This document shows positions 49,350-54,975 of a stretch of 64,000 nt of DNA, piece by piece. The translations under genes and the position numbers were made by a program. The notes under the pieces were generated by a model. It was not told the DNA's origin, did no database searches, and worked only from the letters and a program-made list of their open reading frames with translations. Position 1 is the stretch's first letter; each line of letters opens with the position of its first letter. Source of the DNA: Roseibium aggregatum (lineage in GTDB: Bacteria > Pseudomonadota > Alphaproteobacteria > Rhizobiales > Stappiaceae); the NCBI RefSeq assembly GCF_017309185.1, contig NZ_JAEKJZ010000001.1:1116001-1180000 (forward strand), read 5' to 3'.

Positions 49350-50894
49350 ATGTCTGGATCTTTGTTCCCTGGGAGGGCTTTGCAAAAAGCCGCCCGTGAA
49401 TTTTGCACCAATTCTGTACTTGTTCTTTGTTTTCTTTTGAGTTTTGGACAAGCGTCCCTCGCAAGTGTCGATGAATTTCCGGAAAAGCGACTTGCCCTGG
49501 TCGTAGGGGTGTCGGACTACCTGAATGTTCCGGATCTCGAGAACACGGTGCATGACGGCGCTTTGATCGCCGAAACGCTCAAGACGCTGAATTTCGATGT
49601 TATCGAAAAATACAATCTTGGCCTGCGCGAGTTCAAGGCGCTGTTGGCCCAGTTCGAGTTCGAGGCGGAAACCGCCGATGTCGCGCTCGTCTATTTCGCC
49701 GGACATGGTGTGGAAGTCGGCGGACAGAACTTCCTTATACCGACGGACTCCACGGCAACTTCCCGGGGCGATGTCGCGCAAACCTCGATTTCCCTGAACG
49801 AAATCCTCAGTGCGGTCGACAAGGCGCGGCAATTGAGGATCGTCATCCTGGATTCCTGCCGCAACGACCCGTTTGCCCAGGCGAATGATGTCGAGATCGT
49901 TACGCTCAAGCAGTCCGTGCCGTTAAGCGGGCTTGCACCACCGTCCCCCGAACGTGGCACGCTGGTCGCCTATGCGGCCAAGGCCGGCGCGGTCGCGTTG
50001 GACGGCGCGGGAAAAAACAGTCCGTTCGCAGTCGCGCTCTCCGATACGCTGAAAAAAAAGGATCTGGAAATCGGACTGGCCTTCCGCCAGATCCGCGATT
50101 CTGTCCTGATTGCAACCAACAACTATCAGGAACCCCATACCTACGGGTCTTTGTCGGGCGAGCCTTATTTCCTGGCCGGCCAGCGCCAGACTGTTAATAC
50201 GCTGGAAGCGAAAGAACGCAAGAACGCCTGGAGCCTGCTTGAAGTCGACCAGGAAAAGCAGCTTCAGACCCTCGCTCAAAGAGGCGATGTGCGGGCTCTC
50301 AAGGGGCTCGCCTACATGCGGCTCAATCCGGACGAGGAGCGCTACGACCCGGAACAGGCGGTGGAACTGCTTCAGGACGCGGTTGACGAAGGCGATCCGG
50401 AAGCCATGTTCGAGCTCGGACGCCTGTACGAGAAGGGGATCGGTGTCGAGCAGGACGTGAAAAAAGCGCTCGAGCTGTTTCACCGGTCCGCCGACGAGAA
50501 ATTTGCCGACGCGATCAACGACCTCGGTTTCCTGCATTTTCAGGGGGGACTGGGGGTGCCAAGGGATCAGAAGAAGGCAATCGATTATTTCAGCAAAGCC
50601 GCGGAATTGCGGCATCCGGAGGCCATGTTCAACTATGCGGCGCTGATCGACGACGGAGTCGTGGAGGGCCGGGATCAGAAAGACGCCGCCGAATTTCTTT
50701 ATCGTGCCCTGCGGACCGGAAACGAGCAGGTTCTGGACCTGCTTTCCGAGAACCCGAGAATGTTCAAGCAGGGAACGCGCCGGTCGTTACAGGCCAAATT
50801 GTCAGAGAAAGAGTTTTACGAGGGGGAAATCGACGGCCAGTTCGGGCCTCAGACAAAGCGCGGATTGCGGCGCGCCTACGGCATATCCGAATAA
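49350..50894 (+). CDS. Secreted metacaspase-like protease with Sel1 repeats and PG-binding-like tail
   Basis: 514 residues. Signal peptide (about 15-40, VLVLCFLLSFGQASLAS). Caspase fold (C14) about 45-270 with the dyad: His119 in VYFAGHGVEVGGQ and Cys170 in VILDSCRNDPF. Three Sel1-like repeats (about 330-450, e.g. AMFELGRLYEKGIGVEQDVK). The last 38 residues, EKEFYEGEIDGQFGPQTKRG, look like a peptidoglycan-binding domain of type 1. It likely cleaves after Arg/Lys in the periplasm. ATG 49350 is chosen; TTG 49290 is possible. Followed by two paralogous secreted basic proteins. Confidence 0.85.
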   Translation: MSGSLFPGRALQKAAREFCTNSVLVLCFLLSFGQASLASVDEFPEKRLALVVGVSDYLNVPDLENTVHDGALIAETLKTLNFDVIEKYNLGLREFKALLAQFEFEAETADVALVYFAGHGVEVGGQNFLIPTDSTATSRGDVAQTSISLNEILSAVDKARQLRIVILDSCRNDPFAQANDVEIVTLKQSVPLSGLAPPSPERGTLVAYAAKAGAVALDGAGKNSPFAVALSDTLKKKDLEIGLAFRQIRDSVLIATNNYQEPHTYGSLSGEPYFLAGQRQTVNTLEAKERKNAWSLLEVDQEKQLQTLAQRGDVRALKGLAYMRLNPDEERYDPEQAVELLQDAVDEGDPEAMFELGRLYEKGIGVEQDVKKALELFHRSADEKFADAINDLGFLHFQGGLGVPRDQKKAIDYFSKAAELRHPEAMFNYAALIDDGVVEGRDQKDAAEFLYRALRTGNEQVLDLLSENPRMFKQGTRRSLQAKLSEKEFYEGEIDGQFGPQTKRGLRRAYGISE

Positions 50895-50982
50895 GGTCGC
50901 CTGTCAGGACCTGAAGCGAATCGCGTCCAACGGAAGCGGATTAGCCGTGCAGTCGATGTCAGAGAATATTGGGGGAATATCA

Positions 50983-51615
50983 ATGCGTTTTTTATCATTG
51001 CCGAAGAGTGTGGCTGTTTTGGCTACCGTCTTGTCTGTCCTTGCCTTTTCCGGGTCCGGCCATGCGGCCTGGGACGGAACCGTCGGCTCGTTTCTCGAAC
51101 CGGAAGCTGCAATCGACCTGTTCGGAAGCAGCCAGGTGCCGGTCGAAGGGTCTCGGCCTGAAGTGAAGGTTGCGCCGTTCGAACTGGCCTTTGCCGACGA
51201 CGTCACCGGCGCAATCGTTCGGCAGTTGCAGCGGGGAACTGCCCAATGCGGGCGACTGGACCCCATTTACCGCATCGACTGCATGCGCCAGGTCTACCAG
51301 CAGGCGGCCGGCGCAACCGGAAACCGGCCCGACTATGCTGCTGCGAACTCTCAGCTTCGAAAGGCGTCGCGGGCCTTGAACGGAATTCTGCGCCAGCATG
51401 GCGACAGGAACGCTCCCAAGGCCAAACAGGGCAACAGAAACTACCGGGCGGTGGCGCGGACGGCACTGCGGCAGGCAAACAGACAGGCCAGTCAGGCGAT
51501 CGAGGAAGCGGCGACGAAGTTGCTCAGGTCCGCCGGAAACTCGAAAAAGCGGAAAGTTCACTACACGCGCATCGCGAACGCCGTGAACTCGACCAAAAAG
51601 ATACTGAGATCATAG
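50983..51615 (+). CDS. Secreted basic protein, paralogue A (unknown family)
   Basis: 210 residues. Signal peptide MRFLSLPKSVAVLATVLSVL and on to AFSGSGHA. The mature protein has two Cys (TAQCGRL, YRIDCMRQV) and a conserved basic C-terminus, ATKLLRSAGNSKKRKVHYTR and IANAVNSTKKILRS. It shares the pattern QL-R, CG-L, RIDC-RQV, GNR-D, LRK, LNGI, DR, KAK and the same tail with the next gene. No known family. It starts 88 bp after the metacaspase stop (GGGGG ribosome site) and could be an Arg/Lys-rich substrate or partner of that protease; inference. Confidence 0.78.
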   Translation: MRFLSLPKSVAVLATVLSVLAFSGSGHAAWDGTVGSFLEPEAAIDLFGSSQVPVEGSRPEVKVAPFELAFADDVTGAIVRQLQRGTAQCGRLDPIYRIDCMRQVYQQAAGATGNRPDYAAANSQLRKASRALNGILRQHGDRNAPKAKQGNRNYRAVARTALRQANRQASQAIEEAATKLLRSAGNSKKRKVHYTRIANAVNSTKKILRS

Positions 51616-51801
51616 CGGGCCGGGCTATCTCAAGTCCATTCCGTGGCGGTTTTGCTCCGGCCGTGCAGAGCCGCCCTTTCGCCGGATTGCCGGATTGTGG
51701 TCATTTTATCGTTATATTTAACGACTGCTTCCGCCCTTGCTGTGGGGCAGTGCCTTTTTGGATAGTGGTCGCGTAGTTTCATTCACTGATTTTCGCAAAG
51801 G

Positions 51802-52467
51802 ATGAGAAAGAAAACGATGAAGTTTTTTCATCTCGAAAGGAGGTTCAAAGTCAACGTCAGGGCTTTGGCTGCAATTACCGTTTTGATTTTGTTTCAGGCA
51901 ATCGGGACCGTTGCGGATGCTCAGACCACAGGTGGCACGACCGGTCAAAGTTCCTCGTCAGCGAACGGTGGGTCGTTGGGCTCGGGCAGCAGCGGCGAGA
52001 CCGGCTATGCCGGCGGGGACAGCGACACCATCAATCTCGCGTCCAGCGAGGAAATCACCAACAGCGTTCTAAAGCAGCTTGAGCGCAGGGCCGCGAGATG
52101 TGGCCAGCTGAAAAGGGTGCACCGGATTGACTGCCTGCGTCAGGTGTTCGCGCAAACGGCGGCGATGCTGGGAAACCGGCGGGATCTGGCCGATGCCAGC
52201 GGCGAATTGCGGAAGCTCTCGAATACACTGAACGGGATCGTGCGCCGGAACAGGGACCGGAAGACCAGGAAAGCCAAACTGGGACATACCTATAACCGGG
52301 CGGTGAAGATAGACGCTCTCGAAGAGGCCGAGAAGCAGGCCATTGCCGCCATAGAAGAGACGGCGACCAAGCTGCTAAGATCCGCGGGCAATTCCAGGAA
52401 CCGGAAAGTCCCTTACACCCGCATCGCCCGGGCGGTGAATTCGACCAAGAAAATACTGCGCTCCTAA
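51802..52467 (+). CDS. Secreted basic protein, paralogue B (unknown family)
   Basis: 221 residues. Signal segment about 20-40 (VRALAAITVLILFQAIGTVA), then a low-complexity Gly/Ser linker (TTGGTTGQSSSSANGGSLGS), and the same domain as paralogue A: RCGQLKRVHRIDCLRQVFAQ, GNRRDLADASGELRK, LNGIVRRNRDRKTRKAKLG, ending ATKLLRSAGNSRNRKVPYTR, IARAVNSTKKILRS. It differs mainly in the linker and start. ATG 51817 is an alternative start. A palindrome TCCATATATGGA follows its stop. Confidence 0.78.
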   Translation: MRKKTMKFFHLERRFKVNVRALAAITVLILFQAIGTVADAQTTGGTTGQSSSSANGGSLGSGSSGETGYAGGDSDTINLASSEEITNSVLKQLERRAARCGQLKRVHRIDCLRQVFAQTAAMLGNRRDLADASGELRKLSNTLNGIVRRNRDRKTRKAKLGHTYNRAVKIDALEEAEKQAIAAIEETATKLLRSAGNSRNRKVPYTRIARAVNSTKKILRS

Positions 52468-53895: not shown

Positions 53896-54975
53896 TCAGG
53901 CAGCCTGTTCCTCAAGCGTGCTCAACCGGATCTTCATGAAGGACAGCAACCGGCGCGCATCCCGGTCGGAAAGCTGCTGATAGTCCGCGATCCATTTGTC
54001 GACCGTGGTCTGCGGCTGCTTGTTGTTGGTGGCCCGGGCACGGCACAGGGACGAGTAGTCGTTTGCTTCCACGCCGAGCGCCTTGCACAGAACCGCGATG
54101 CCGGTCGCATCGTAGCGGACCATGACGTTGGTTACGTATTTCTGTCCCAGGCCGGCGACTTCCGAAATCAGGAAGCAGATGTCGAAGAGGTTGTTGGACA
54201 ACGCCAACTGGGTGATCGCCTTGCTGAGACAGCGTTTGCCCTCGCGGATTTCCTTGAGCGTCACCTTGGTGTTGATCCTGGAGGCTTTGCGTTCGAGCTT
54301 GGTGCTGGCGACAACCTTGCTTGCCTCGTGGAAAAGGTCGCGGACAAGCGCCTCGTTTTCTTCACGCAGTTTGCGGACCATGACCTGTTGCTGCTGAGGC
54401 ATCTGGCCGATCAGCTTGTCGTAGTCGCTCTCGGTGATGTCCGTGCGTTCCATCATCGCGTTGCGGATCTTTTCGTCGCTCTCGGCAAGCTTGATCAAAA
54501 GCCGCGAACCCCATTCCGAAAACTCCGCGCCGTTGTTTTGCGCGACCGACTGTTTAACCGGTTTTTCGCCGCGTTCCAGCAGAACATCGGTGACATTGGC
54601 TTCCAGATGGGAGCGCTTCGAAATGGCAAGCAGATGGTCCTGGCCCATGGTCTTGGCGATCTGCAAAATGTCCTCGGTCTTCAGAACCTTGGACGTCGTC
54701 AGCATCGGCATGGCGATGTCGATCGCCTCACGCGCAAGAGAATTGGCCACTTTGCTCGACGTGCTGTCTATCGGTGCCAGTCTTTCGGAAACAACCTGCT
54801 TCTGTTCGTCTTCCATCTGCGGAAGCATGTTTTCCAGAACGGTGTTGAACAGTGAGATCTCTTCGGTCTGGTAGCTGTCCGATCCGTTGACGAAAAGTGT
54901 GGTGACCAGCTCGACCAGCTGATGGCGCTTTTCGGGAGAACTCTCTTTGGCGAGACTGATGATGTCGTCAATCAT
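53896..54975 (-). CDS. DUF2336 domain-containing protein
   Basis: 359 residues, soluble, helical. The DUF2336 features are visible: AREAIDIAMPMLTTSKVLKT, AISKRSHLEANVTDVLLERG, LSNNLFDICFLISEVAGLGQ, and the C-terminal FMKIRLSTLEEQAA. The function is unknown in the family. Convergent with the hydrolase-OsmC gene. The 400 bp upstream is without a gene. Confidence 0.85.
   Translation of the reverse strand: MIDDIISLAKESSPEKRHQLVELVTTLFVNGSDSYQTEEISLFNTVLENMLPQMEDEQKQVVSERLAPIDSTSSKVANSLAREAIDIAMPMLTTSKVLKTEDILQIAKTMGQDHLLAISKRSHLEANVTDVLLERGEKPVKQSVAQNNGAEFSEWGSRLLIKLAESDEKIRNAMMERTDITESDYDKLIGQMPQQQQVMVRKLREENEALVRDLFHEASKVVASTKLERKASRINTKVTLKEIREGKRCLSKAITQLALSNNLFDICFLISEVAGLGQKYVTNVMVRYDATGIAVLCKALGVEANDYSSLCRARATNNKQPQTTVDKWIADYQQLSDRDARRLLSFMKIRLSTLEEQAA

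Follow-up and report, generated by a model that had tools for sequence, protein, structure and literature searches.

An exported C14 orthocaspase and a co-distributed family of small secreted proteins form a candidate protease-client system in Roseibium and other marine bacteria

The stretch of DNA analysed here (the window) comprises 64,000 nucleotides from the 6.1 Mb genome of Roseibium aggregatum (G000), and the system in question consists of three of its genes, which encode a C14 protease followed by two paralogous proteins, A and B (Table 1). The family to which A and B belong is referred to as par. The three genes lie directly 3' of ccmI-ccmE-ccmF-ccmH, names that we presume from the sequences, without a family search. 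With 102.3 bits against a Pfam cut-off of 21.4, the protease is a member of Peptidase C14 (PF00656), and it also exceeds the cut-off for Sel1 (PF08238; 88.9 against 30.7), while its tail matches PG_binding_1 (PF01471) weakly, at 21.8 bits for a cut-off of 23. The NCBIfam model for EACC1-associated caspases (NF047832) returned 49.4 bits, below its cut-off of 140. The dyad formed by His119 and Cys170 is invariant in all 21 aligned C14 relatives, and Cys170 is the sole cysteine of the protease outside the signal-peptide region, which holds Cys19 and Cys27. The only solved caspase-type domains matched by the protease sequence are those of MALT1. A structure model of the protease was poor outside the Sel1 part (mean predicted local distance difference test (pLDDT) score of 68.5), and no conclusion was built on it. 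A PADLOC scan matched the two C14 proteins submitted to it only to a model named caspase (36 bits, over the first third of the model), and scans for promoters and terminators remained at chance level.

The window genome contains 13 C14 matches in total. Among the eight others compared with the protease, the nearest shares 32% identity over 513 amino acids and the remainder match mainly in the C14 domain (30–37% identity), so that the window protease represents a distinct C14 subfamily. Two additional clusters of C14 genes lie outside the window in this genome, one of three genes (G000:C3:372797-377248) and one of two (G000:C1:1949469-1953499). Another C14 protein of the same genome (L174:5774-7750) matches in its Sel1 and C-terminal parts at 32% identity, and no par-like gene adjoins it. 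Labrenzia is named among the ten genera richest in metacaspases in PMC4933709.

Paralogues A and B are 56% identical over 146 amino acids (E = 3e-53), have two cysteines in common, and agree at 30 of their last 34 positions. In the 35 codons of the tail, counting the stop, there are 18 synonymous and 4 amino-acid-changing differences, compared with 48 synonymous and 64 changing ones over the whole 146-residue domain. The likeness of the tails is therefore not that of a recent copy, and is a sign of selection on the tail. A common plan is seen in 23 par proteins: a hydrophobic, signal-peptide-like start (judged from hydrophobicity and not by a dedicated predictor), an acidic low-complexity stretch with a net charge of −1 to −11, and a basic C-terminal domain with two cysteines, the net charge of which drops as low as +2. 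In the AlphaFold2 model of A, residues 1–69 are disordered and residues 70–210 form a helical domain with a short hairpin (pLDDT mostly >90); no structural relative stood out. Neither A nor B reached the cut-off of a Pfam or NCBIfam family. The lowest E-values among par relatives were 7.5e-4 (DUF4407, one of 18 proteins) and 1.3e-3 (NGK_0946, four of 23), and A itself scores 15.1 bits against NGK_0946, for which the cut-off is 45. The PADLOC defence families returned no matches for A, B and the par proteins of L106 and L221.

The N-terminal parts of par proteins vary. Those examined are mostly short low-complexity stretches, and in one genome (G920) the par domain forms the C-terminus of a protein whose YDG and MBG_2 repeats exceed their Pfam cut-offs; its frame starts near the contig start, so that the protein may be longer. 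A plasmid of Leisingera thetidis (L104:5374-6435) carries an open par frame in which a long repeat of the Gly-Gly-Asp type precedes the conserved domain; the region is annotated as two hypothetical genes on opposite strands.

A preliminary description of the locus had named a C14 protease with an intact catalytic dyad and Sel1 repeats, and two tandem secreted paralogues of no known family, with two shared cysteines and a nearly identical 34-residue C-terminus, all of which the searches bear out. The wall-binding-like tail that it gave the protease is present, but as a weak match below the cut-off. Its emphasis on a general richness in arginine and lysine is not upheld, as the charge of the par domain falls so low and paralogue B has no lysine or arginine at all between signal peptide and domain; the telling feature is instead a pair of LLRS-type motifs.

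Table 1. Features of the protease and par genes in the window.
Feature	Position	Strand	Basis
C14 orthocaspase, putatively exported, 514 aa (amino acids), with Sel1 repeats and peptidoglycan-binding-like C-terminus	49350..50894	+	family searches, alignment
C14 peptidase domain, residues 46-267	49485..50150	+	PF00656, 102.3 bits
Catalytic His119 codon	49704..49706	+	alignment of relatives
Catalytic Cys170 codon	49857..49859	+	alignment of relatives
Sel1 repeat region, about residues 333-455 (best Pfam stretch 350-383)	50346..50714	+	
PG_binding_1-like C-terminus, residues 477-508	50778..50873	+	just under Pfam cut-off
Paralogue A, 210 aa: predicted signal peptide, acidic low-complexity stretch, helical domain (residues 70-210) with Cys89/Cys100	50983..51615	+	
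Paralogue A motif 1, LLRS, residues 180-183	51520..51531	+	
Paralogue A motif 2, ILRS, residues 207-210, C-terminus	51601..51612	+	
Paralogue B, 221 aa, same plan as A	51802..52467	+	
Paralogue B motif 1, LLRS	52372..52383	+	
Paralogue B motif 2, ILRS, C-terminus	52453..52464	+	

When A was used as the query, 15 of the 45 genomes of the genus gave a match, and 14 were left after removal of a low-complexity false match (G005, E = 2e-5) without the cysteine pair or well-placed LLRS motifs. Weak matches in G012, G031 and G053, to low-complexity or unrelated frames with the same shortcomings, had been dropped before the counts. The protease subfamily, taken at E ≤ 1e-60, likewise occurs in 14 of the 45 genomes, and these are the same 14. 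The genus holds 18 par copies, 15 of which adjoin the protease; the other three are orphans (G034, G018, G013) in genomes with a C14-par pair at another locus. Two main arrangements can be distinguished: copies at the ccm locus share 8–32 flanking open reading frames with one another, and those at other loci share only 0–3 with the ccm locus. Near the pair in the window lies a gene on the reverse strand (53896-54975) of which the relatives L028, L030, L031 and L032 have one or two additional paralogues at this position.

Such a distribution could arise by coincidence of clade history, with two unrelated genes being inherited together. Presence is indeed clustered on the genus tree (none of 500 shuffles was as low), and the genes are usually adjacent. 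However, a quick GlnE tree of the 45 genomes requires six changes of the pair, at least four of them gains or losses on branches with good support, and in four of four independent well-supported contrasts the two genes change jointly. Distances between C14 proteins follow those between par proteins with a partial r of 0.85 beyond GlnE (none of 2000 permutations was as high), calculated for 13 of the 14 genomes because the C14 gene of G017 is split by a contig end; such a correlation is to be expected of two genes that are passed on as a unit.

A second family (f74, presumably Rhodobacteraceae), sampled as 120 genomes with one per genus, separates co-occurrence from linkage. The par profile matches 18 of these genomes. 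In 15 of them the best E-value is 4.7e-26 or lower and the match reaches the C-terminus, and in the other three (G487, G872, G943) the values range from 9e-15 to 6e-13 and the match stops short of it. The C14 subfamily, at the same limit as before, is present in exactly the same 15 genomes and in none of the three with weak par matches; its weakest match has an E-value of 2e-159, and there are no borderline matches above the limit. Each of the 15 has one C14 match and one to three par copies, giving 29 par copies in total for 15 proteases, and 19 of the 29 are unlinked, the other ten lying in the fetched stretch beside C14. Seven of the 15 genomes (G949, G935, G951, G932, G906, G907, G920), mostly drafts, have no par near C14, which is at least 3 kb from the contig ends in all seven, and linkage therefore does not explain the co-occurrence in this family. 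The genes around unlinked par copies, read by eye, are mixed and have no common theme. With an overlap of 15 out of 15, seven of them unlinked, we consider a coincidence of clade history highly improbable. The counts of 14/45 and 15/120 leave out the one false match and the three divergent C14-less relatives.

In 397 genomes of the order, a search with A1 matched only the genome of the window, G002 and G110, and in a class sample of 385 genomes C14 was found in one (that of the window) and par in two (that of the window and the weak relative G487); misses are possible in both samples, as few candidates were scored per genome (mostly seven in the order, and mostly three for C14 and seven for par in the class, compared with up to 24 and 12 in the f74 searches). 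In G110, a draft genome from another family of the order with 6% contamination, par adjoins a C14 protein of 55% identity, and one orphan par is also present. In a Nitratireductor metagenome-assembled genome (MAG; L091), three genes follow one another: a C14 gene (68% identity, truncated at the contig end), par and another C14 gene. In two MAGs (L091:1333-2814, L095:334-1887) the gene immediately after par encodes a further C14 protein of a different kind, about 35% identical. On roseobacter plasmids, tblastn located par in nine records and C14, at a length coverage of at least 80%, in 20; all nine are among the 20. In each of the five par records examined, par follows or closely trails the caspase gene; plasmid searches with two further par proteins yielded nothing new. 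The pair thus recurs in differing contexts, namely the ccm operon and other loci of Roseibium, G110, the Nitratireductor MAG and roseobacter plasmids. The partnership between par and the protease, and the dependence of par on this C14 subfamily, are well supported. The functional tie that the preliminary description had suggested is strongly supported. Of the two conditions that it had named as refuting, neither holds: the paralogues reach the cut-off of no known family, and the association, seen in the genus and in f74, extends beyond a single strain.

The par domain carries two LLRS-type motifs. An alignment of 58 unique par proteins was made, and motifs were counted in 55 of these, leaving out the sequences from the three C14-less f74 genomes and including that of L095, which comes from a MAG without a close C14 found and is cut by the contig end. 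The arginine of motif 1 is kept in 54 of the 55 proteins and that of motif 2 in all 55, and both cysteines are kept in all 54 readable sequences. The 55 proteins contain 110 matches to the pattern [LIV][LI]R[SAT], where shuffling of their last 150 residues gives 7.5 on average. The segment S183–R209 is 27 residues long in 41 of the 55. Its net charge runs from −1 to +8, with +8 in A and B of the window, which makes a general cationic-peptide reading weak. A cut in the N-terminal stretch that would set the domain free was likewise considered, and is unlikely for B, given its lack of lysine and arginine there.

The three relatives in C14-less f74 genomes retain both cysteines and Asp141, and motif 2 is unmatched in all three; this comparison with C14-bearing genomes comprises three sequences, and no direction of change is assigned. 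They adjoin the same kinds of neighbours as the par genes of the C14-bearing G850 and G949, in which both motifs are kept with variants. We take these neighbours to be a USP-like (universal-stress-like) gene, joined by a monooxygenase-like gene in two cases and, at a greater distance, by a ParA-like gene in one. A block that combines a par-like gene with universal-stress-like and monooxygenase-like genes (L218:5332-6819, L173:7410-8709, L229:4596-6246, L232:5768-7508) is found in both C14-bearing and C14-less genomes.

The surroundings of C14 in f74 resemble those of a type VI secretion system (T6SS) locus known from the plasmids. Within about 10 kb of C14, genes like those of the plasmid locus include PP2C in 10 of 15 genomes and TagF with part of TssM in nine of 15, and a kinase, OmpA and M15 are also near in most of these genomes. 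A like block surrounds C14 on the roseobacter plasmids, as far as these were fetched. At L106:1-12420 and similar plasmid loci, the conserved block consists of CheA/CheW/CheR/response regulator, caspase, M15 peptidase, OmpA, Ser/Thr kinase, PP2C, TagF and TssM. The pair might accordingly be an accessory of type VI secretion, acting in a threonine-phosphorylation or wall-passage step. Of the query genes of the T6SS locus, however, none besides C14 was found in the two flanks of ~19 kb around the pair of Roseibium G007 and G015, nor in L096/L097 of G110, so the link is lineage-specific as far as tested. In five of the 15 f74 genomes, the surroundings of C14 yielded no more than a single weak kinase match (G854), and par copies also adjoin unrelated genes. 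A role as a T6SS accessory is very doubtful.

We tentatively favour, with slightly less than an even chance of its being correct, a dedicated protease-client system in which the par proteins would be clients of an exported, Arg-specific orthocaspase. The orthocaspase would take the Sec pathway out of the cell, and its Sel1/peptidoglycan-binding part would keep it close to the wall. A and B, as its clients, would be exported as well. Each would consist of an N-terminal passenger, variable and mostly disordered, and a conserved helical domain at the C-terminus, probably pinned by a disulfide, that bears two LLR-S motifs 27 residues apart. The protease would recognise the client domain and cut after the arginine of an LLR-S motif, most likely motif 1, and the cut would free or mature the passenger and release the C-terminal helix. 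Motif 2, located at the very C-terminus, more likely serves in recognition than as a cut site. The purpose of such a system might be surface sorting, maturation or the release of a peptide. Orthocaspases are described as cleaving after basic residues, arginine or lysine (PMC6426788).

Two other relationships between the proteins are considered. The par proteins may be stable, non-substrate partners of C14, such as a subunit or an anchor to which the Sel1 repeats bind, in which case the LLRS motifs would be a binding or helix-packing interface. Sel1 repeats are, in general, protein-binding modules, the motifs are in or beside ordered helices, and C14 and par diverge together. Such a partner would not readily account for one to three par copies to a single C14, nor for N-terminal parts that range from short acidic stretches to repeat domains, and we regard it as rather unlikely. 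Still unlikelier is a dedicated inhibitor or pseudo-substrate regulator, an idea already raised in the preliminary description and retained here as a rival: a stable, disulfide-pinned bundle whose Arg motifs fill the Arg pocket of the protease without a productive cut, although several scattered par copies per protease, variable passengers and a YDG/MBG fusion would be atypical of inhibitors. The many-to-one ratio, the unlinked copies, the variable passengers and the conserved Arg motifs are more in keeping with a client than with an inhibitor or a subunit, and they resemble the logic of rhombosortase and GlyGly-CTERM; the client is the best reading. The substrate idea of the earlier description stands in this form, with cleavage itself only predicted, and its suggestion of a toxin is unsupported.

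Several observations weigh against the client reading. In the genus, par adjoins C14 in all 14 pair-bearing genomes, so that linkage is a confounder there; four contrasts give a p-value of 0.125 and cannot reach significance, and the f74 counts were made without a tree. In the MAG G465 (L095) no close C14 was found (best 38%), and its par is cut by the contig end. Of the 20 roseobacter plasmid records with C14, 11, all of them fetched, have no adjacent par, in a search confined to the plasmids. Both motifs are in or beside helices of the ordered model (pLDDT mostly >90) and would therefore be poor cut sites unless unfolded. In 48 of 55 par proteins, motif 2 closes the chain or leaves a single residue after it, and a cut at this position would remove almost nothing. 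One par (L219) reads LLTS at motif 1. The C14-less relatives have TVRS, LLTS and IMRG at this place, two of them keeping the arginine, and one ends in ALRP. A loss of the motif in these relatives is uncertain, as it concerns three divergent sequences with an uncertain alignment, and this lowered our confidence slightly. Finally, homology among par members spans the entire 140-residue domain, in contrast to short sorting tails.

No description of the C14-par pair was found in the literature, searched by titles and the starts of abstracts, with most subscription journals outside the coverage. The sortase-like protease of the Porphyromonas gingivalis type IX secretion system (T9SS) belongs to clan CD, and protease family and secretion machinery differ from those of the C14-par pair. 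The likeness is in an exported cargo whose C-terminal domain is cleaved off at the surface (PMC4560394). The rhombosortase/GlyGly-CTERM system, as outlined by Haft and Varghese in 2011 (PMC3237569), has in common with par several targets per protease and a pair that is adjacent in some genomes and distant in others. Measured against this type of system, par is co-distributed with one protease subfamily in a many-to-one and often unlinked relation. It does not have the tail of motif, transmembrane segment and basic residues, being a soluble-looking helical bundle of 140 residues that ends in LRS, with homology extending over the whole domain, and C14 is a cysteine protease with a signal peptide, whereas rhombosortase is an intramembrane serine protease. 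Adjacency of rhombosortase and target is presented as almost wholly confined to single-target genomes (PMC3237569), whereas genomes with two or three par copies (G850, G871, G889, G912) also have an adjacent one.

Two caspase-fold systems offer further parallels. AtMC4, a plant metacaspase with the caspase fold, cuts the dedicated small precursor PROPEP1 after an arginine and a C-terminal peptide is released (PMC7206013); this system is eukaryotic, and is likened to par by its logic and not by sequence. A bacterial counterpart of such metacaspase-released peptide signals, in which a cut after arginine at LLR-S would free the 27-residue C-terminal helix as an extracellular signal or antimicrobial peptide, with the variable N-terminal part displayed on the surface, seems to us improbable. 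The orthocaspase MaOC1 is described as acting on the product of a nearby gene, an antitoxin, probably at basic C-terminal stretches (PMC7935541). Its substrate is of the ParE/ParD-like toxin-antitoxin type, and it is set beside par by description only.

The role of bacterial caspase homologues is a long-standing question, and to our knowledge natural substrates are known for few of them. The C14-par system offers a dedicated pair with named candidate sites, and its occurrence in marine bacteria, several members being cultured strains, makes it directly testable. If the client reading is true, a caspase-fold enzyme would join the few proteases that have a C-terminal target domain of their own distributed along with them, and one bacterial caspase lineage would be placed in export or surface biology rather than in cell death.

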